A stretch of DNA of 33,004 nt from a virus: the IMG/VR virus record IMGVR_UViG_3300010401_000063, positions 1 to 33,004 of that record. One strand, 5' to 3'. The stretch's first letter is position 1. Each line of letters starts with the position of its first letter. This document shows, one piece after another, positions 2,720-32,535 of this stretch. The position numbers were made by a program, and so were the translations under genes. Under the pieces are notes generated by a model. It searched no databases. It was not told the DNA's origin and worked only from the letters and a program-made list of their open reading frames with translations.

Positions 2720-4795
2720 TTATCGTCGTTGTACCCAGAGCGTGACATGCAGGTCGCTGTTGGTCGGACTCCATGAGCCGTCCGTTGTCACGACGAGCCC
2801 GAGTCCGCGTCCCTGCCCGCCGCCCACGATGGCCGTCTGCGAGAACACATCGCTGCGCTGTGAGCCTCCATTGGCGTTGAAGGTGTTGCCGGAGTTCATC
2901 AGCACGTCCGCAGTGCTGCCATTGATCTTGGTGCCGTTGTCGGTGACCGAAATCTGGCACGAGCCAGCAGTGATGACGCCCGAGCAACTCGAATCGATGG
3001 CGATGACCGCCCATGAATATGCGGTCTGAAGGTTGTTGCGCGTCCAGCCTGCCGGAGCAAGGGCAAGGTTCATCTGGCTCGCCGCGAGATCGAGCGCGTA
3101 GAAGGTGAGCGGAATCGCCTGCTGCCAGGTATTGGGTGTGAAGACATCGTCCACACGGGGACAGTCGACGGCGACCACGGCTCCTGTACCGAGCGACCCG
3201 ATGGTCCCGCCTTCGAGGCGGGTCTGCAGGACGCCCGGCCTGATCTTCAGGAAGTTCGGATTGCTCGGCGCATCGCCTTCCGCATAGCAGTCGCGGATAA
3301 CGTTCCCGAGCCCCTGATTGATGTAGAGCTTGTAGACGCTCGTGTTGTCGGGTATCACGCGCCAGTACGGGAAGACCGTGACGGCGGTGGTGGTGTTGCC
3401 GGTGATGTGGCGAATCTGCCCCGCCCCGGTACCGCCCGTGATCTCGCAGGCCCCGCCGATGTAGACCCCGGCCGTGAAGGCGCCACCGGAATTGACGAGC
3501 GTGTTGATGGTACCGCTCGTGGCGGTACCGATCTTGTCTCCGGTCGATGAGCCGAAATCGTAGTGCGCGACCTTGATTGATTCGCCGACGATCTCGCGGA
3601 ACACGTTGCCGTTGCCATCGAGCATGCGGCAGAGGGTGTCGAAGCCGTAGATGCGGCCGCCGTGATAGCGGTTGGCATTGGGGCCGTTGTAGTTCTCGCC
3701 TACCGCAACACGATCGAGGTAGTAGCCGACCGATCCTGAGGTCGTGCCCCCGATGTTATTCGAGGCCATGTCGATCTGATCGAACTCGTTGTAGTACGGC
3801 CGGTCGCCCGTGCGACCGATCATGTAGATGCCGCGGGTGTTGTTGCCGTTCGCGGTGATGTGGATGCGCTGGAAGCTCGAATAGCTGAAATGCGAGGCGT
3901 CGATGCCTGTGCAGCCATCGGCGGAGAAGTCGATGCGCAGGTCGCGCATCGCGATGTGATTCCGGACCGTCTGGTTGCTGTTGGCGATGATCGAGGAGTT
4001 GGCGGAACCGGTCCACGTAAGGACCGTGCCGCCACTTCGGCCGGCGCCGATGAGCGCCTGCCCATCGCCTTCGAACATGATGGGCGTGCTGATGTTGAGC
4101 GGATCACGACCGAAGGTCGCGACCCCCTGCGAATGCAGCACGCTCTGGATCGCCGCATTGTTGACGGTCGCGGGAGCGGTTTTCGCCGCACCATAACGGG
4201 CAACCGTGCTCGAAGCCCAGAGGTCTCCGGCGGGATAGCGCGCGTTGGTCGGGACGAGACTGACGGCAAGCTCGGCGGCGGACTGGGGGTAGCCGGGGAC
4301 GAAGAGACCCGTCTGCCACTGATTGACGCTCGTGAGTTCAGCCGCGACGGCGACGACAGCCGCCCGTGCCGTGGCATCGGCGGTGCTGCCCGTGCCATCG
4401 AACCCGTAGCGGTATTCGTTGAGGGGCGGGAAGGCGAAGTTGACGACCGTGACCCCTGCTGCTTCTTCGGCTGCGGTGATGTCGTACAGCGCCCGGCCGA
4501 CCTCGTCCTGCGTCAGAACGAAGGGAGTCGCGGGATCGATCGTGCGGGTATTGCCGCCATCGCTGTCGGTCAGGATGAACTTGAGTTCGACGCCGGCCGC
4601 GCCGTACATGACCGGGAAGCGCCCGAGGTCATCTGCAACGACGGGGTTGGTGTGTGCGATGGAGAGCGCGGAGTCCTTGTAGACGGGAGCCGGATTGCTC
4701 GTCTGGCTGAAATATGTCGCACAGAGCGCGCCCGGAAACGGCTTGCCGTTCGCGTCATGATGACTCAGGCGCGGCTCTGGGATTAGTCTTGACAC
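2720..4795 (-). CDS. Tailspike, head-binding domain plus beta-helix
   Basis: 691 aa from the GTG at 4793-4795, chosen because GGAG lies 6 bases upstream. A longer frame to 4843 would start inside the terminator hairpin. Residues about 1-100 match the particle-binding module of podoviral spikes and fibres: a Gly-Lys-Pro-(F)-Pro-Gly turn, a TYFSQTSNPAPVYKDSALS-type beta strand pair, NPVVADDLGRFP and a terminal strand with D-G-x-T-R-T-I-D-P. The remainder is rich in short Asn/Gly/Thr/Val repeats (for example NSSIIANSNQTVRNHIAMRD) typical of a right-handed beta-helix of the pectate-lyase type. Expected role: binds and probably degrades host surface polysaccharide, with specificity that cannot be read from sequence. 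The position after the ejection genes matches P22 gp9. Confidence 0.75.
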   Translation of the reverse strand: MSRLIPEPRLSHHDANGKPFPGALCATYFSQTSNPAPVYKDSALSIAHTNPVVADDLGRFPVMYGAAGVELKFILTDSDGGNTRTIDPATPFVLTQDEVGRALYDITAAEEAAGVTVVNFAFPPLNEYRYGFDGTGSTADATARAAVVAVAAELTSVNQWQTGLFVPGYPQSAAELAVSLVPTNARYPAGDLWASSTVARYGAAKTAPATVNNAAIQSVLHSQGVATFGRDPLNISTPIMFEGDGQALIGAGRSGGTVLTWTGSANSSIIANSNQTVRNHIAMRDLRIDFSADGCTGIDASHFSYSSFQRIHITANGNNTRGIYMIGRTGDRPYYNEFDQIDMASNNIGGTTSGSVGYYLDRVAVGENYNGPNANRYHGGRIYGFDTLCRMLDGNGNVFREIVGESIKVAHYDFGSSTGDKIGTATSGTINTLVNSGGAFTAGVYIGGACEITGGTGAGQIRHITGNTTTAVTVFPYWRVIPDNTSVYKLYINQGLGNVIRDCYAEGDAPSNPNFLKIRPGVLQTRLEGGTIGSLGTGAVVAVDCPRVDDVFTPNTWQQAIPLTFYALDLAASQMNLALAPAGWTRNNLQTAYSWAVIAIDSSCSGVITAGSCQISVTDNGTKINGSTADVLMNSGNTFNANGGSQRSDVFSQTAIVGGGQGRGLGLVVTTDGSWSPTNSDLHVTLWVQRR

Positions 4796-13616: not shown

Positions 13617-15515
13617 TTAATTCACTGAAACGGTTGTCTTGGCCGCGGGCTTCGCGCCCGGCTGGCCTGCCTCGCCTTCCGGCTGAGGACTGGTGAACTC
13701 GGCGATCTTCACGCTCGCGTCCACCTGGGATTCGACGGCGGCGGCCTTGGCCTGCTCGGCCTGCGCGGCGGTCTTCTCCACATTCGCTTTGGCAAGGGCT
13801 TCCTGCAGTTCCATCATCCGGGCCTGCATCTGCGCCATCTGCTGTGCTTCGGGGTCGTTGGCTCCCGACAGCTCATCCATGACCTGCTTCTTCGTCTGCG
13901 CACGCAGCTGGGATGCGGCGATCAGTGCCCGCGGCGGGATCTTTACCGCACCCGACTCGGCGAGCCGTACGAGCTTCTCGAATTCCTCGGACTGGACGAT
14001 CACCGTATCCGGTGCTTCATCGATGATGATGTCGACGTCCATCTCCGCGACGTTGTTCTCGATCGTCTGTCCCATGGCGTTCGGGTCGGAGGCGATCTGC
14101 TGCACCATCGCCATCTTCTGCTCGGGCGGCAGCTGCTTCTTGGCCAGTTTCTTGGCCTGCAGCTCGCCCATGGTCGTTGGCTGGTTGAGACCGGCGAAGC
14201 GGACGTTGTCCTCGTTGTCAGTCACGCGAATCCACATGGGCGCGGTCCAGTACTGCCGGATGCGGTTCCATGCATGGCGATACATGCGCGTCTTCCAGGA
14301 ACGCAGCGCATTGGCGAGGGGAGCGGTCATCAGCATGCCGCTCTGCTGGTCCACCTGCTTGGCGCGGCCCGAGATATTGCCCGTCTGTCCCATGAGCGCC
14401 GCATTGGGGCCGGTCATCGAGAGCTGCTGATCCGTGTACTGCATCAGCTGGAACTGGCCCTGCGACATGTCGAGATTGGTGATGATCTCGGACTTCATGC
14501 CCTGCGTGTATTCGATAAACCCATCGGGCTTGTGCAGTTCGTTGCGGGCCTTGTTGATGTCCGCGTAGGCGCCTTTCTCCGCATGAATCTGCTTCGTGTT
14601 GAGCAAATGCATCATCTTGGAACGGCGCTTGTTGTGCTCGTCCTGCAGATCGATCCAGCGCGGCACGGCGCCGAAGGGATTGCCGTCACGGTCCTTGTAG
14701 ACCGCCTGCAGCTCGATGCAGCAATCCGGCTGGCCATCCTCGTCCTTGTAGTTGGAGGGCTCGGGACCTTCCAGATAGCCGCCGATACACCACACCGCGC
14801 GCATCCAGTACTCGCCCTTGCGATAGTAGGTGGTGAACACCTGCACGCGCTTGCGCTTGTCGCTGATCATCGCGAAGCGCGGCTTGTCCTCGTGCGTCTG
14901 GTCCGTGCTGAGGGATTCGCCGGTGAAGCACTGCTCAAGAATATCGGCCTTGCCCTTCCACTGCGGCATGGCCACGGCGTCATCCAGATCCATCCACGTG
15001 AAGAAGCCCTTGTAGCGGGCGTCCGAGTAGTCGAGTTCGAGCGAGTGCGGATCGTAATAGACGCGTTCCCAGCGGATGCGGTTCATCAGCACGCGCGGAT
15101 GCTTCTTCTCGCGCGGCTCGATGATGACTTCGCCGGCACAGAGTCCCTCGACGATCAGGTTGTCGAAGGCGGCCGTCGTGACTTCCGTGAAAGCGTTGTC
15201 GTCCTTGACGTAGCGCAGCGCATCGGTTGCCGCATCCGCATCGTCTTCGTGCTGCGGCGTGCGCGGATAGGCTTTCGGGTCGGTGCGCGTCTGCTGTTCG
15301 ATGCCAAGCAGCGTGTCGCACTTATCCTGAATCTTGTTGTCGATGACCGGGGGCTGCTTGCGCTTCTTCAGCGCCTTGCGTTCCTCCTCGGACAGCTGCT
15401 CGTTGTTCTTGTAGTCCCGGCACTTCTCCGCGAGCGTACGGATGGCGAGGGTCGAGGTACTGAAGTCGCGGAACTCGGTGATGCGGTCATCGAGACCGTC
15501 TACGCTACTTTCCAC
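13617..15515 (-). CDS. Portal protein
   Basis: 632 aa, comparable to P22 gp1-type portals. The N-terminal region is charged (EERKALKKRKQPPVIDNKIQ), followed by the portal-like DKCDTLLGIEQQTRTDPKAY, LIVEGLCAGEVIIEPREKKH and IRWERVYYDPHSLELDYSDA. The last about 130 residues are a long Ala/Glu/Gln helix (MQARMMELQEALAKANVEKT) and a Gly/Pro/Ala-rich tail. It forms the dodecameric DNA entry ring at one head vertex and docks the terminase and later gp4. GTG start at 15513-15515, overlapping the TerL stop by 16 bases. Confidence 0.85.
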   Translation of the reverse strand: MESSVDGLDDRITEFRDFSTSTLAIRTLAEKCRDYKNNEQLSEEERKALKKRKQPPVIDNKIQDKCDTLLGIEQQTRTDPKAYPRTPQHEDDADAATDALRYVKDDNAFTEVTTAAFDNLIVEGLCAGEVIIEPREKKHPRVLMNRIRWERVYYDPHSLELDYSDARYKGFFTWMDLDDAVAMPQWKGKADILEQCFTGESLSTDQTHEDKPRFAMISDKRKRVQVFTTYYRKGEYWMRAVWCIGGYLEGPEPSNYKDEDGQPDCCIELQAVYKDRDGNPFGAVPRWIDLQDEHNKRRSKMMHLLNTKQIHAEKGAYADINKARNELHKPDGFIEYTQGMKSEIITNLDMSQGQFQLMQYTDQQLSMTGPNAALMGQTGNISGRAKQVDQQSGMLMTAPLANALRSWKTRMYRHAWNRIRQYWTAPMWIRVTDNEDNVRFAGLNQPTTMGELQAKKLAKKQLPPEQKMAMVQQIASDPNAMGQTIENNVAEMDVDIIIDEAPDTVIVQSEEFEKLVRLAESGAVKIPPRALIAASQLRAQTKKQVMDELSGANDPEAQQMAQMQARMMELQEALAKANVEKTAAQAEQAKAAAVESQVDASVKIAEFTSPQPEGEAGQPGAKPAAKTTVSVN

Positions 15516-28608: not shown

Positions 28609-28977
28609 TCAGCCCTCCATCACTGACAGATGCGCCCCGACTCGCCACCTCGCCCGTCGCAACACATTCTGCGCCTGTCGCTCGCGCATTCGAAGCTTCT
28701 CGGCGAGTTCCGACATCGCCATCCAGCCCTGGTAGTACAGCCGCAAGGCGCGCTGATCGATCTGGCAGCATCTCGCCACACACACATCGACGTGCGCTGC
28801 AGGCTCTGAGAGCACCACAGGCGGCCTCCCCTCCTGACCTGCGCCCATCGGGCCCTGTTCGATCAATCGGCCAAGCAGCGTCTTCTCCGGCCATCCTGCG
28901 ATGCGTTCGCGGGTTTCGGCACCCCACTGTTCGAGACGGATGTGGATGATCTTCGTCTCGGCGTCCATGCGGTTCAT
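28609..28977 (-). CDS. Q-like late antiterminator candidate (HTH protein)
   Basis: 122 aa from the ATG at 28975-28977 (frame open to a TTG at 29031, and a second ATG at 28968). No strong ribosome site decides. The segment KIIHIRLEQWGAETRERIAG is like the start of phage Q/DUF1133-type antiterminators. The C-terminus (RALRLYYQGWMAMSELAEKL, RMRERQAQNVLRRARWRVGA) is a sigma region 4-like helix-turn-helix. Two cysteines lie close together at the centre (VARCCQI). It ends 6 bases before the tRNA, and the late terminator and operon follow. This is the place of a Q gene in lambdoid phages, but the sequence match is partial. Confidence 0.5.
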   Translation of the reverse strand: MNRMDAETKIIHIRLEQWGAETRERIAGWPEKTLLGRLIEQGPMGAGQEGRPPVVLSEPAAHVDVCVARCCQIDQRALRLYYQGWMAMSELAEKLRMRERQAQNVLRRARWRVGAHLSVMEG

Positions 28978-29093
28978 GGTGCGGCGATCACGGGATTCGA
29001 AGACGGGAAGGCTCACGGCGAGTGCGTTCAAGGTTGACCCCGTTCGTTATATGGAAAGCGGCTGGTTTTCATACGATTGTGCGATGAAGCTCC

Positions 29094-29360: not shown

Positions 29361-29709
29361 GGTCTTTCTCGCAGAGCACTTTGGCCTCCTGAGGTTGGTC
29401 GCGGATACCGATCATGTGCTCAGGGGTCTCGCCCTGTTTTCGTCGCCACGCGGTGAACATAGACTTCCCCATGACCGAGTCCATAGAAACCGAGTAGCGC
29501 CCGCACTTCGAGAGTGCGTAGCCCGAGTTGGGTCCGGTGCGAACGGCGGTCTCCCACTCGAGCGGAGGCAGAGGCTTCCGGAGTTCCGCCTTCGGCGTCG
29601 CCCTCTTGGGGACTGCGTCTGGGACATGTCTCCTCAAGACTTCCCACATCTTGTCTTCGGATACATGCCGCAGGGGCCCATGCATCGGGCTGTATGGCGC
29701 TTGACTCAT
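29353..29709 (-). CDS. Hypothetical phage protein, 118 aa
   Basis: ATG at 29707-29709, chosen because it overlaps the HNH stop (ATGA). A longer frame to 29838 runs over the HNH gene. N-terminus HGPLRHVSEDKMWEVLRRHV. C-terminal module SKCGRYSVSMDSVMGKSMFT followed by AWRRKQGETPEHMIGIRDQP and QEAKVLCEKDRE. This small module is common in phage early regions but its function is not known. A Cys at the KCGR turn and one near the end could bind metal. Confidence 0.5.
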   Translation of the reverse strand: MSQAPYSPMHGPLRHVSEDKMWEVLRRHVPDAVPKRATPKAELRKPLPPLEWETAVRTGPNSGYALSKCGRYSVSMDSVMGKSMFTAWRRKQGETPEHMIGIRDQPQEAKVLCEKDRE

Positions 29710-30119
29710 GCCGCTGAACTCCATCTGCGCCGGCCACGCTCTTTCTCGCATTCGGCGTGACGGCCACGAGGGTTCTCGGTTCCATGCTGATAAATCCTCA
29801 TTTTCTGCGGATCGTCGTACTGACCGCAGTAATTGCATTTCAGCCAGTCCGCATGACCACAGGCATCAAGCGCTGCAGTTCGACGATGAATTAGGTTGTG
29901 ATACGCCTGGCTCGGGCAAATCACCAAATTCTCAGGCCGGTTGTCACCCTTGTTCTCATTGACGTGATGGATAACTGCCCCAGCTGGTAGAGGCCGGCCA
30001 AGAACGCCTTCCGCCACGAGTACGTGCTCCCTGACGATTCGGCCACGCACATGTTTCGTCACATAGCGTGACGATTGAGTCATCTGCGGTACAATAGTTG
30101 CGATGTTAACGACCGCCAT
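29706..30119 (-). CDS. HNH endonuclease with C-terminal zinc-ribbon-like segment
   Basis: 137 aa from the ATG at 30117-30119, with an alternative ATG at 30083 (MTQSSRYVTKHV) that starts directly at the AP2/HNH-type N-terminal strand. HNH core: AVIHHVNENKGDNRPENLVI with the His-His-Val, Asn-Asn motif and the later YHNLIH His. The C-terminus CNYCGQYDDP...HGTENPRGRHAEC carries two Cys-x-x-Cys-like elements suitable for zinc. Not next to terminase, so a homing-type or general nuclease is likely rather than the packaging HNH. It is the first gene of this leftward group. Confidence 0.7.
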   Translation of the reverse strand: MAVVNIATIVPQMTQSSRYVTKHVRGRIVREHVLVAEGVLGRPLPAGAVIHHVNENKGDNRPENLVICPSQAYHNLIHRRTAALDACGHADWLKCNYCGQYDDPQKMRIYQHGTENPRGRHAECEKERGRRRWSSAA

Positions 30120-30529
30120 GAACAGCCTGCTTTCACTTCTGCTGGATCATCCGGAGCGCTTTACCTGGAGCGAGATCCCGTGCTGTCTGCTCGGTGTCTG
30201 GGAAGCTGCTCTGTCCACCTCACCTGACCCTGTATCTGCATCCCGAGCGCCGGTTGAACGAACCCCATTCCCGCTCGAGGCGAGAGATGGAGTTCGTCCT
30301 GACCCTTGCAGAGCTCGCAGAGCCCTCGGCCAGTTGCCGTCGTAGTGGCACTCGGCATCCGGGTTCACTTTCGGGAGGCTTCTCCCCCGTCAGCTCGGGC
30401 CACCCGTTTCACTCGGCCCTATCGCGTGTGCTGAATTCCCCCAGTGGCGATATGTGAGTGCATGCGCTGGTGTTGCCCGCCCGCATGCCCCCGAAGGGAC
30501 TAGCTGGGCGGCTCACTCCGATTTGAGAG

Positions 30530-30584
30530 ATCAGCCCGCCCGCCTGCCTGTGCCAGTGCGGGATCAGAGGCGGGGACCGCTGAT
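30530..30584. repeat. Imperfect inverted repeat in the gap left of the repressor
   Basis: ATCAGC at 30530-30535 and GCTGAT at 30579-30584 form the outer arms, and CCGCC and GGCGG pair further inside with bulges. The product would be a hairpin about 55 bases long. Nearby, CCGCCC and GGGCGG flank another folded part at about 30479-30511. Could be the body of a small RNA or a protein binding site. Confidence 0.4.
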
Positions 30585-30602
30585 ATGGTCGGGCCAAGAC
30601 TG

Positions 30603-30635
30603 AAAACCCAGTTCTGGGCGTTAATTAAAAACGCC
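30603..30635 (-). terminator. Probable terminator of the leftward repressor transcript
   Basis: On the minus strand GGCGTT/AACGCC (6 pairs, 7-base loop) is directly followed by CCCA/TGGG (4 pairs) and TTTTC. The two hairpins share two bases, so they may compete. It lies about 35 bases after the repressor stop. Confidence 0.45.
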
Positions 30636-30668
30636 GACTTTTGGTGAATTTCCACTGCTAGGCTGATC

Positions 30669-30896
30669 TCAAGAACAATCAGCGCGCAGTTCTGTCCGGC
30701 GCGTACGCGTGGCCGCGGGACTGCGAAAATAGGCAGCGAGCTTTTCGATGTGGCTTACACCGGGGTCCTTGACCTCACGGCGCGCGATCTTCTCGATCGT
30801 GCGCTTGGACATGCGGGTCGCCTTCGCAACCTTGGTCCAGTTGCCTTTCGCAGATTCGAGCTCTTCGAGGACGTACGCGTAGATGGATTCGGCCAT
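30669..30896 (-). CDS. Small HTH repressor candidate (CI position), 75 aa
   Basis: Helix-turn-helix: WTKVAKATR (about 20-28) turn and recognition helix SKRTIEKIARR (about 30-40), then DPGVSHIEKLAAYFRS. The C-terminus is short and basic, with no LexA-like peptidase domain. The ATG (30894-30896) starts only about 8 bases after the -10 box of the leftward promoter, so the mRNA is probably leaderless or nearly so. Position and orientation match the repressor of the immunity region. It could instead be a Cro-like protein. Both HTH genes flank the same operator. Confidence 0.6.
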   Translation of the reverse strand: MAESIYAYVLEELESAKGNWTKVAKATRMSKRTIEKIARREVKDPGVSHIEKLAAYFRSPAATRTRRTELRADCS

Positions 30897-30904
30897 AGAC
30901 CCTT

Positions 30905-30933
30905 ATGTTAGACCCACTATAGGGTCTACGCAA
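30905..30933 (-). promoter_or_regulatory. Leftward promoter of the repressor gene
   Basis: Minus strand -35 TTGCGT (30928-30933), 17-base spacer, -10 TAACAT (30905-30910). The spacer is filled by the palindromic operator. The expected start of transcription is at about 30898-30899, only about 2 bases before the ATG. Confidence 0.6.
30909..30928. promoter_or_regulatory. Operator O1, TAGACCC-N6-GGGTCTA
   Basis: Perfect 7-base inverted repeat with a 6-base centre, inside the leftward promoter spacer and reaching into both boxes. A third half site TAGACCC lies at 30896-30902 over the repressor start codon. Binding would block RNA polymerase. Confidence 0.7.
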
Positions 30934-30944
30934 CCCAGTAGAGG

Positions 30945-30963
30945 GCGTAAATCGCTTTTACGC
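30945..30963. repeat. Hairpin before the rightward HTH gene
   Basis: GCGTAAA and TTTACGC (7 pairs, 5-base loop) end 9 bases before the ATG at 30973. It may limit translation, stabilise the 5' end, or be a second regulator's binding site. Confidence 0.4.
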
Positions 30964-30972
30964 TGCCCTGGC

Positions 30973-31308
30973 ATGGGCAGACGTTCAAAAAAGTTCAAGA
31001 CGCCGAGTCTTGTGGTCGGCATTCTTGGTCAGAACGTGCGTGATCTGAGGGATCAGCGATACGCTCGTTTGCCCCATGACACCGCAAGGAATAAGGCACT
31101 CGCAAAGGATGCGGACACGACGCTGAGCCAGATTCAGCGCGTGATTGCCGGTGAAGTAGCTGTCGGAGTGGACCTGGTGGAGTCGCTTGCCACCGCGCTG
31201 AGGGTCCAACCCCGTGACCTACTGACGCCGTATCTCGCCGCGTCCATGGAAGGCAAGCCGCCACCTGACGCTCATATGCGGGATTCGGCCTTACTTCAGC
31301 GACGCTGA
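30973..31308 (+). CDS. Second small HTH regulator (XRE-like), 111 aa
   Basis: ATG at 30973-30975. The frame extends further upstream, but that would put the start over the operator region. Residues about 15-80 read as an XRE-type domain: GQNVRDLRDQRYARL, ALAKDADTTLSQIQRVIAGE, VDLVESLATALRVQPRDLLT. The C-terminus is a short unstructured tail without peptidase motif. Weak ribosome site. Transcribed rightward, in the direction of the early genes, so either Cro-like or a co-repressor. Both are possible. Confidence 0.6.
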   Translation: MGRRSKKFKTPSLVVGILGQNVRDLRDQRYARLPHDTARNKALAKDADTTLSQIQRVIAGEVAVGVDLVESLATALRVQPRDLLTPYLAASMEGKPPPDAHMRDSALLQRR

Positions 31309-31382
31309 GATACTCCTGCTCCTTGAAACACCCATGATCTGACGCAGAGCAACATCGACACGGTCGTTCCCTGTCGAGCGTT
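31309..31382. other. Leader before the early promoter
   Basis: Non-coding. It holds an inverted repeat, TCGACA and TGTCGA (31355-31377), whose role is unclear. Possibly a weak terminator of the upstream regulator or another operator. Confidence 0.3.
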
Positions 31383-31402
31383 TGGACCCTAAAAAGGGTT
31401 GC
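31383..31402. promoter_or_regulatory. Operator O2, imperfect TGGACCC-N6-GGGTTGC
   Basis: Centre of six bases (TAAAAA) and inner ACCC/GGGT arms shared with O1. It overlaps the -35 of the rightward promoter. Its start lies 21 bases from that of O3, two helical turns, so dimers could contact each other. Confidence 0.6.
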
Positions 31403-31427
31403 ACACACCCAAAATAGGGTCTATCAT
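31399..31427 (+). promoter_or_regulatory. Early rightward promoter
   Basis: -35 TTGCAC (31399-31404), 17-base spacer, -10 TATCAT (31422-31427), the best sigma-70-like promoter in the window. Expected start at about 31434, giving a leader of about 33 bases before the first early gene. Confidence 0.7.
31404..31423. promoter_or_regulatory. Operator O3, imperfect with perfect GGGTCTA arm
   Basis: ACACCC-AAAATA-GGGTCTA with centre in the promoter spacer, as for O1 in the leftward promoter. It reaches into the -10 box. Confidence 0.65.
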
Positions 31428-31466
31428 CTCTCCCACGCTCACTACCGGGCGGATGGGAGAAGGGTG

Positions 31467-31706
31467 ATGGAGAGACAAGTCACACGAGCGATGCTTCTGG
31501 CGGTGGCGCTGGGTGCATCGGCGCTATGGATCATGTGCACGTACGTCCGCACGGACCCGCGCTCCAGCTCCGACTTCTCCAGCCTCGACCTCGATCCCGC
31601 ATATGCGATCGCGGCCTTCTGCGGCAACTCTCCGCTCAAGGGGGGTGATGCCCAGCTGATCGCCGACTGGGGCAAGGCCCACCACATCGACTGCGGGGTG
31701 AACTGA
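31467..31706 (+). CDS. Small exported or membrane-anchored early protein, 79 aa
   Basis: First gene of the early operon. Purine-rich GGGAGAAGGG lies just before the ATG at 31467-31469. N-terminus MERQVTRAMLLAVALGASAL then WIMCTYV is one membrane or signal segment. The remainder is soluble (DPAYAIAAFCGNSPLKGGDA, QLIADWGKAHHIDCGVN) with two cysteines that could pair outside the cytoplasm. First-made membrane proteins of temperate phages often act in exclusion. That is inference only. Confidence 0.55.
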   Translation: MERQVTRAMLLAVALGASALWIMCTYVRTDPRSSSDFSSLDLDPAYAIAAFCGNSPLKGGDAQLIADWGKAHHIDCGVN

Positions 31707-31707
31707 G

Positions 31708-31851
31708 ATGTCAGAGCCCACCCTCGAAGACCGCAAGGAGCGCAAGCCCTGCACCTGTGGTCACCCGCTCATCGACCATTGCGATGACGGTGCTCAGGGC
31801 TATTGCATCCACGAAGGCTGCGACTGCGATCGCTACGAGGCGCAGTCATGA
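31708..31851 (+). CDS. Cysteine/histidine-rich mini-protein, 47 aa
   Basis: ATG at 31708-31710, one base after the previous stop. The product reads KPCTCGHPLIDHCDDG then GYCIHEGCDCDRYEAQS: six Cys and three His in C-x-C-x-H and C-x-x-x-x-C-x-C spacing, enough for one or two zinc sites. Next gene starts in the stop (ATGA). Too small for routine gene finding but the frame, order and overlaps support it. Function unknown. Confidence 0.6.
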   Translation: MSEPTLEDRKERKPCTCGHPLIDHCDDGAQGYCIHEGCDCDRYEAQS

Positions 31852-32033
31852 GCCAGAGCTACTCCCAGAGCACCTTGTGGTCGCTGCGATGGACCCCTGC
31901 GCGCGGGACGCACTGGAAGAACGAGCGAGGCGTGACGCCGGAGACGCAGGATGCGTGGCTCGCTCGATTCCGAGCCGATGAGCCTAGCGTGACGTTCACC
32001 ATCGCATTGCGAGCGCCGAAGGCGCCGAAATGA
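31848..32033 (+). CDS. Hypothetical 61-aa early protein
   Basis: ATG at 31848-31850 in an ATGA overlap; next gene also in ATGA. Product QSYSQSTLWSLRWTPARGTH, WKNERGVTPETQDAWLARFR, ADEPSVTFTIALRAPKAPK: basic, with several Trp. No family recognised. Confidence 0.5.
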   Translation: MSQSYSQSTLWSLRWTPARGTHWKNERGVTPETQDAWLARFRADEPSVTFTIALRAPKAPK

Positions 32034-32266
32034 GCACCGGAAAAGAAAGGACCGGAGCCACGCGTACCCGCGTGCAGCGCGAAGCCAATCGTATCGACTG
32101 CGAGTTGTATAGCGCGATCCGCAGCGCCGAGGACCTATACGACTCGCTGAAGCGATACACCGGTCCCCGCGTAATCGAGTTGCACAAGTCGCTCCAGAGC
32201 CTCCGTAGTGCACGTGTCGGAATTCGGATGCTCATGCACGCGGACGACCGCGCGAGGACGGTATGA
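32030..32266 (+). CDS. Hypothetical 78-aa helical early protein
   Basis: ATGA overlap at both ends. Basic and helical: ATRTRVQREANRIDCELYSA, IRSAEDLYDSLKRYTGPRVI, ELHKSLQSLRSARVGIRM. No recognised family. Composition would suit a nucleic-acid or protein-binding early factor. Confidence 0.5.
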   Translation: MSTGKERTGATRTRVQREANRIDCELYSAIRSAEDLYDSLKRYTGPRVIELHKSLQSLRSARVGIRMLMHADDRARTV

Positions 32267-32535
32267 GCAACTCCCACACCGAAAGTAACTCGCCAGTTCC
32301 GGGTTCTGTCCGCAGTTCTCTCATAGAACTCGGTTCAGCGGTCGCCAGAATTCGGAAGCACTACTTCCTCAAAGCCGGCGGCGAACAGACGTACTACACC
32401 TACGTCACGCTCCTGATACCGAGCGGGCTAGAACCGGCAACCCCTGCGCAGTCGATAGAGGTCTATCTGTCGCCCGAAGCGCGACAGGCGCTGATCGACG
32501 CGCTCTCGGATGAACAGCAGGACGTGAAGCCATGA
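32263..32535 (+). CDS. Hypothetical 90-aa early protein
   Basis: ATGA overlap at both ends. Contains SLIELGSAVARIRKHYFLKA, YYTYVTLLIPSGLEPATPAQ and YLSPEARQALIDALSDEQQD, a mixed alpha/beta protein. Not assigned. Confidence 0.5.
   Translation: MSNSHTESNSPVPGSVRSSLIELGSAVARIRKHYFLKAGGEQTYYTYVTLLIPSGLEPATPAQSIEVYLSPEARQALIDALSDEQQDVKP

Follow-up and report, generated by a model that had tools for sequence, protein, structure and literature searches.

The question raised by this locus is whether the palindromes around two divergent helix-turn-helix genes are the operators of a lysis-lysogeny switch and, if so, which of the two proteins reads them. We analyzed the whole of IMG/VR virus record IMGVR_UViG_3300010401_000063 (33,004 bases, hereafter the window), which is probably a fragment. 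Its minus strand carries P22-like portal, head-closure, ejection and terminase genes; the nearest named phages for the portal gene (13617-15515) were CBW1004C-Prop1 and the Pseudanabaena phages Pam5, Pan3 and Pam1, at about 37-39% identity. The two helix-turn-helix genes, P1 and P2, lie divergently at the right end. As developed below, the locus very probably serves a temperate P22-like podovirus as its immunity region, with the layout known from lambda.

P1 matched PHROG 9425, a transcriptional repressor family, with E = 1.6e-12 over residues 3-64 of its 75, and its match to Pfam HTH_3 (E = 0.0014) fell under that family's cut-off. P2 matched the Pfam families HTH_31 (E = 8.7e-5) and HTH_26 (E = 2e-4), and the intergenic region between the two genes measures 76 bp. 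Going leftward, P1 is followed by a gene with a weak Q-like match and, beyond it, by the late genes; small genes of no assigned function follow the rightward promoter. An HNH endonuclease gene (29706-30119; HNH_3, E = 9.3e-12) is also found downstream of P1 on the same strand. No integrase gene was found in the window, the record being a fragment. The features of the region are as follows.

28609-29031, minus strand: Q-antiterminator-like gene, weak match (phrog_79, E = 4.9e-4), downstream of P1 and before the late genes
30669-30896, minus strand: P1, 75-aa helix-turn-helix protein in cro-like position (PHROG 9425)
30905-30910, minus strand: putative -10 (TAACAT) of the leftward, pR-like promoter, 8 nt before the P1 ATG, assigned by conservation in relatives
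30928-30933, minus strand (read 30933-30928): putative -35 (TTGCGT) of the same promoter, assigned by consensus match and conservation
30909-30928, no strand: O1, TAGACCC-N6-GGGTCTA in the 17-bp leftward spacer, 7 of 7 arm bases paired
30930-30949, no strand: O2, degenerate copy over the leftward -35 (core 30933-30946), 21 bp from O1
30959-30964, plus strand: candidate -10 (TACGCT) of a pRM-like promoter for P2, 8 nt ahead of the P2 ATG, a conserved TAnnnT
30963-30980, no strand: O3 candidate, CTGCCC-N6-GGGCAG on the P2 start codon, read by eye
30973-31308, plus strand: P2, cI-like helix-turn-helix protein of 111 aa, encoded between the operator pairs (HTH_31, HTH_26)
31383-31402, no strand: O2', copy ending on the rightward -35, core ACCC-N6-GGGT at 31386-31399, read from the sequence
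31399-31404, plus strand: putative -35 (TTGCAC) of the rightward, pL-like promoter, consensus match
31404-31423, no strand: O1', copy in the rightward spacer, core ACCC-N6-GGGT at 31407-31420, read from the sequence
31422-31427, plus strand: putative -10 (TATCAT) of the rightward promoter after a 17-bp spacer, consensus match
31464-31706, plus strand: first gene of the rightward operon, without family match

All palindromes and promoters named in a preliminary description of this DNA were present in the sequence. The operator pattern is stronger than that description claimed, with a fourth site and the same pair at both promoters: each outward promoter has an operator in its spacer and another, 21 bp away, that ends on its -35. 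The description had overlooked O2, whose core reads GCCC-N6-GGGT on the minus strand, with 7 of 8 core letters, and likewise the O3 candidate. The expected -35 of the P2 promoter, a hexamer far from consensus, falls within O2 too. The same operator stands at both outward promoters, so that one protein could close both, as had been proposed. Both putative promoters match the consensus weakly (7 of 12 positions for the leftward one, with its 17-bp spacer), and their assignment leans on conservation. A strict promoter scan listed the rightward promoter alone, shifted by one base, and did not list the leftward one. The O3 candidate has a counterpart in the same register in one relative (L003, by reading) and is not conserved in the other loci; single candidates for a third operator at the repressor promoter occur in the window and L003 only. 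A further CCC-N6-GGG palindrome (AACCCAGTTCTGGGCG) lies at 30605-30618, just downstream of P1; over 21 nt it shares 81% of its letters with the O2 region at 30932, and it adjoins a terminator-like hairpin at 30617-30635.

We then compared these palindromes with chance expectation. The core ACCC-N6-GGGT occurs three times in the 33,004 bases, each time within 30912-31420 (about 500 bp). Among 300 dinucleotide shuffles of 30300-32300, 295 had no copy, five had one and none had more. Palindromes with 7-base arms are not rare as such (two observed against a shuffle mean of 1.8), and when up to three mismatches were allowed across the whole record, a reversed control pattern gave five matches per strand against two per strand for the true pattern. 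The signal is therefore one core repeated in register with the promoters, rather than palindromes as such.

To follow the region in relatives, we fetched loci from viral contigs and bacterial genomes with P1 as the query. P1 relatives were found in 22 loci; the genome collection yielded one locus, and single queries with the P1 proteins of L014 and L013 added one new locus, L025. L006 and L007 were dropped as near-identical, and L024 (=L014), L026 (=L013) and L027 (=L003) as repeated records, which left a non-redundant set of 20 relatives plus the window (21 loci). In five loci (L003, L022, L023, L025 and L028), the positions of the spacer operators were taken by reading and not by automatic choice.

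A P1 promoter of the form TTG-17 bp-TAnnnT, with 6-8 nt to the ATG, was present in 17 of the 21 loci; L010 and L011 have no recognizable -35, and L013 and L025 have other spacing as scored. The mirrored far promoter carried its own CCC-type operator pair in 16 of 21 (15 pairs at 21 bp, L019 at 20 bp), against a mean of 0-0.03 per region expected by shuffling. Most often the -35 reads TTGAC at the far promoter and TTGCG at the near promoter. Three more loci, L013, L014 and L025, have different operator letters (TTCC/GGAA, AGTA/TACT and TGTAC-type) and carry copies of their own operator near both promoters, the far sites of L014 being 33 bp apart. A second operator set at the far promoter was thus found in 19 of 21 loci, and the sites of the preliminary description are conserved in relatives. 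In L020 no far pair was seen in the 783 bp searched, and L018, with 43 nt upstream in total, offered no sequence for this search. Near O2 is reduced to one half-site in L004, L010 and L011. Operator placement is thus conserved although the letters change.

These data bear on an alternative reading, in which the palindromes serve as transcription terminators or arose as chance repeats, the genome being GC-rich. Long-armed palindromes are indeed as common here as the shuffles predict. However, one and the same core is found again in different environmental contigs, aligned with promoter elements and at a fixed 21-bp spacing, and its places are occupied by a different core in other loci. Moreover, two terminator-like sites were found where 2.3 were expected, and neither falls at an operator position. 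We regard this reading as scarcely credible and take the palindromes to be putative operators. The further proposal that the regulator has stronger affinity for its own promoter is weak and was not borne out as a general rule: arm symmetry, which is not affinity, was higher at the near than at the far spacer operator in seven of 14 loci, equal in five and lower in two (L015 and L017, not scored in register, were left out). In L014, three AGTA-N6-TACT sites lie between the divergent genes, their cores starting about 25, 48 and 69 nt before the P1 start codon (position 3962); their spacings of 23 and 21 bp resemble a full OR1-OR2-OR3 set.

The P1-P2 module also has a nearly fixed length. The first bases of the two start codons are exactly 77 nt apart in 12 of the 18 non-redundant loci with P2, and 76-80 nt apart in 16 of 18; P2 starts were picked by eye among in-frame starts before the distance was measured. 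In 15 of 18 loci a TAnnnT hexamer precedes the P2 start by 7-9 nt (by 8 nt in 11), and in 19 of 21 loci (including L018) one precedes the P1 start by 6-8 nt, the background frequency of TAnnnT being 0.0035 per position. A search for ribosome-binding motifs found none before P2, and its three matches before P1 were the -10 itself. Since -10-like hexamers lie 6-9 nt before both starts and no ribosome site was found before P2, both mRNAs are probably leaderless. There is precedent for this: the cI and cro mRNAs of the Yersinia telomere phage PY54 were shown by RACE to be leaderless (PMC4488713), and the paaR2 repressor gene is described as leaderless in its report (PMC8630535).

We next examined the two protein families. 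A P2 orthologue adjoins P1 in 21 of 24 loci scanned (redundant copies and Pseudomonas phage PAJU2 counted); no match was found in L012, L017 and L018, the last with 43 nt upstream. A scan for P2 relatives with the single protein gave 71 pattern matches, none of which was confirmed, and orthologues were found beside P1 instead. Iterative hmmsearch joined the P2 helix-turn-helix to the N-terminal region of ORF059, the repressor of PAJU2, and the P2 profile matched PDB 5d4z, the Repressor of a Salmonella temperate phage, with E = 4.1e-8. P1 matched the PAJU2 Cro-like protein with E = 0.3 from the window protein and E = 4e-6 from the L004 protein. Peptidase_S24 (PF00717) was absent from all 22 virus records; P2, at 111 aa, lacks a cleavable C-terminal S24 domain and so is not of the RecA-cleavable CI type. 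No antirepressor family (ANT, Bro-N) scored over cut-off in 20 records. One weak ANT-like match, with stops, was seen in G019.

Twelve of the 22 virus records contain an integrase gene, and in nine of these it lies downstream of the far promoter in the same direction (L006, L011, L013, L014, L016, L021, L022, L023 and L025; the L006 match is under cut-off). Placement was assigned manually from the contig coordinates. In L008 the integrase, also under cut-off, is so placed only if the contig is circular, while that of L003 is on the other strand and that of L004 on the other side. The integrase placement and the PAJU2 and 5d4z matches fit a cro-like P1, a cI-like P2 and a pL-like far promoter.

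AlphaFold predicted all-helical helix-turn-helix folds for P1 (mean pLDDT 79.5) and P2 (85.3). Foldseek against the PDB returned general XRE-type matches only, none at E = 0.001 or better; those for P2 included P22 c2 and 434 Cro. The models are as similar to C-proteins, HigA and SinR as they are to phage repressors, again with every E-value above 0.001, which would suit a restriction-modification controller or a toxin-antitoxin type regulator in place of a lysis-lysogeny switch. Nevertheless, the setting, with a Q-like gene and late operon on one side and an integrase operon on the other in relatives, speaks against such a regulator, as does the homology of P1 and P2 to the PAJU2 repressors. 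The neighboring proteins scanned included no methylase or toxin family and one HNH nuclease. We therefore consider a restriction-modification or toxin-antitoxin role very improbable.

Which protein reads the operators is a finer question. Two relatives, L012 and L017, lack P2, and any other gene, between the promoters, yet keep all four operators, with the near and far spacer operators 89 bp (L012) and 117 bp (L017) apart, core to core. P2 was not found elsewhere on these fragments of 5.2 and 19.7 kb, the L012 match being P1 itself. Mean column identity is 54% for P1 and 26% for P2, while the operator stays the same. The P1 recognition helix co-varies with the operator (r 0.76), and the correlation persists when the rest of the protein is controlled for (partial r 0.55, 4/2000 permutations, n = 20). 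These observations favor the view that P1 alone reads the operators and represses both promoters, with P2 as an accessory regulator that has its own target. On the other hand, L012 and L017 are fragments, and the partial correlation drops to 0.20 (226/2000) once the two most divergent loci, L013 and L014, are left out.

The P2 helix co-varies with the operator as well (r 0.44, 26/2000; partial r 0.33, 94/2000, n = 16; partial r 0.24, 204/2000 without L013). In addition, all 11 loci with ACC half-sites, and none of five others, carry the P2-helix motif S[TSQ][ILV]QR, chosen after seeing the data (Fisher 2.3e-4), which suggests that P2 reads the sites too. We judge a P1-only arrangement unlikely; that P1 and P2 may both use the same operators is moderately supported by the sequence comparisons. 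The helix-operator co-variation is only suggestive of two proteins that bind the same operators with opposite preference.

In the reading we prefer, a lambda-like immunity region, P1 (cro-like) would be transcribed leftward from the pR-like promoter. A weak promoter, located like the pR-like one in the 76-bp intergenic region, would drive P2 (cI-like) rightward, and the pL-like promoter beyond P2 would fire rightward. The 21-bp operator spacing corresponds to two helical turns, and a pair of bound dimers would be expected to exclude RNA polymerase. The two proteins would most likely compete for a shared set of operators: P2 may hold both promoters shut in the prophage, and P1 may limit early transcription, and that of P2, during lytic growth.

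The comparison with lambda supports this layout. In the lambda record, OR1 and OL1 have 13 of 17 bases in the spacer, and three bases of OR2 and of OL2 fall on the -35. The OL1 and OR1 centers are 2,407 bp apart, with cI, rexA and rexB between; two sets of three operators about 2.3 kb apart are described in one cited account (PMC5880393), and PL is placed upstream of cI-rexA-rexB in another (PMC8630535). In both systems operators sit in the spacer and on the -35, and the cI or cI-like gene stands between the sets, divergent from cro or its counterpart. Thus, the preliminary description was correct that a complete second helix-turn-helix gene separates the operators, but its contrast with a compact lambda switch does not hold, because the lambda sets also flank cI. 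The window differs from lambda in its 14-bp operator core (ACCC-N6-GGGT), in pairs 21 rather than 24 bp apart and in start codons 77 rather than 101 nt apart. It also lacks a clear third operator, rex genes and an S24 peptidase on the cI-like protein.

Other known systems share parts of this arrangement. PAJU2 has annotated divergent repressors, ORF059 and ORF060, and operator-like repeats at both promoters; ORF060, which one record names putative repressor Cro, shares 39% identity with the P1 protein of L004. However, ORF059, at about 234 aa, is twice the length of P2, the operator letters differ, and 29 nt separate the -10 from the ATG of the cro-like gene. The Salmonella phage Repressor (PDB 5d4z/5d50) is likewise a short repressor whose helix-turn-helix matches the P2 profile; the match is confined to that domain, and no ANT or Bro-N protein scored over cut-off in the 20 records scanned from the window group. 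The Salmonella protein is reportedly displaced by an antirepressor. The immB region of PY54 shares divergent cI and cro, a short intergenic region and, for both genes, the leaderless mRNAs predicted for P1 and P2, but a single operator, OR3, is described for it (PMC4488713). The CP-933P paaR2/ydaS immunity region is a lambda-like switch with a non-lambda repressor, a leaderless repressor gene and equally spaced palindromes, and differs in its other proteins and in a toxin-antitoxin operon linked to the repressor (PMC8630535).

Among named siphophages with P1-like genes (Bhz54, PSASB_03, Kimi, Vibrio 1.207.B and VPv64), a palindrome scan found no such tandem operators, and the annotated members list no repressor-like gene beside the P1-like gene. 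In the cultured Bordetella phage IFTN4 (L033), a near-perfect palindrome lies in the spacer of the P1-like promoter (about 2450-2480), with a -10-like hexamer just 6 nt before the ATG; no far operator copy was found in the 5.2 kb of sequence searched. A literature search of open-licence papers alone turned up nothing that we recognized on this phage clade.

We tentatively propose, as a possibility against which the balance still tilts, that these phages represent an environmental temperate clade with a minimal lambda switch: two small non-cleavable helix-turn-helix proteins, leaderless mRNAs, a fixed 77-nt start distance and one operator covering the -35s of both the cro-like and the cI-like promoter, with the cro-like protein alone controlling both promoters through four operators in some members (L012 and L017). 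The lambda-type switch is of a known kind; this uncultured phage group with its short repressor is a new example. In it, the lambda operator layout appears to be kept at both early promoters while the protein and the operator letters change, and kept in phages in which no cleavable repressor was detected. Three traits deserve follow-up: the probable leaderless state of both mRNAs, a module of nearly constant length and the apparent natural absence of the cI-like gene from some loci. Loci of the L012/L017 type may reveal what the switch does once that gene is lost. Overall, the loci would offer a natural series for the co-evolution of operator specificity in two competing proteins.
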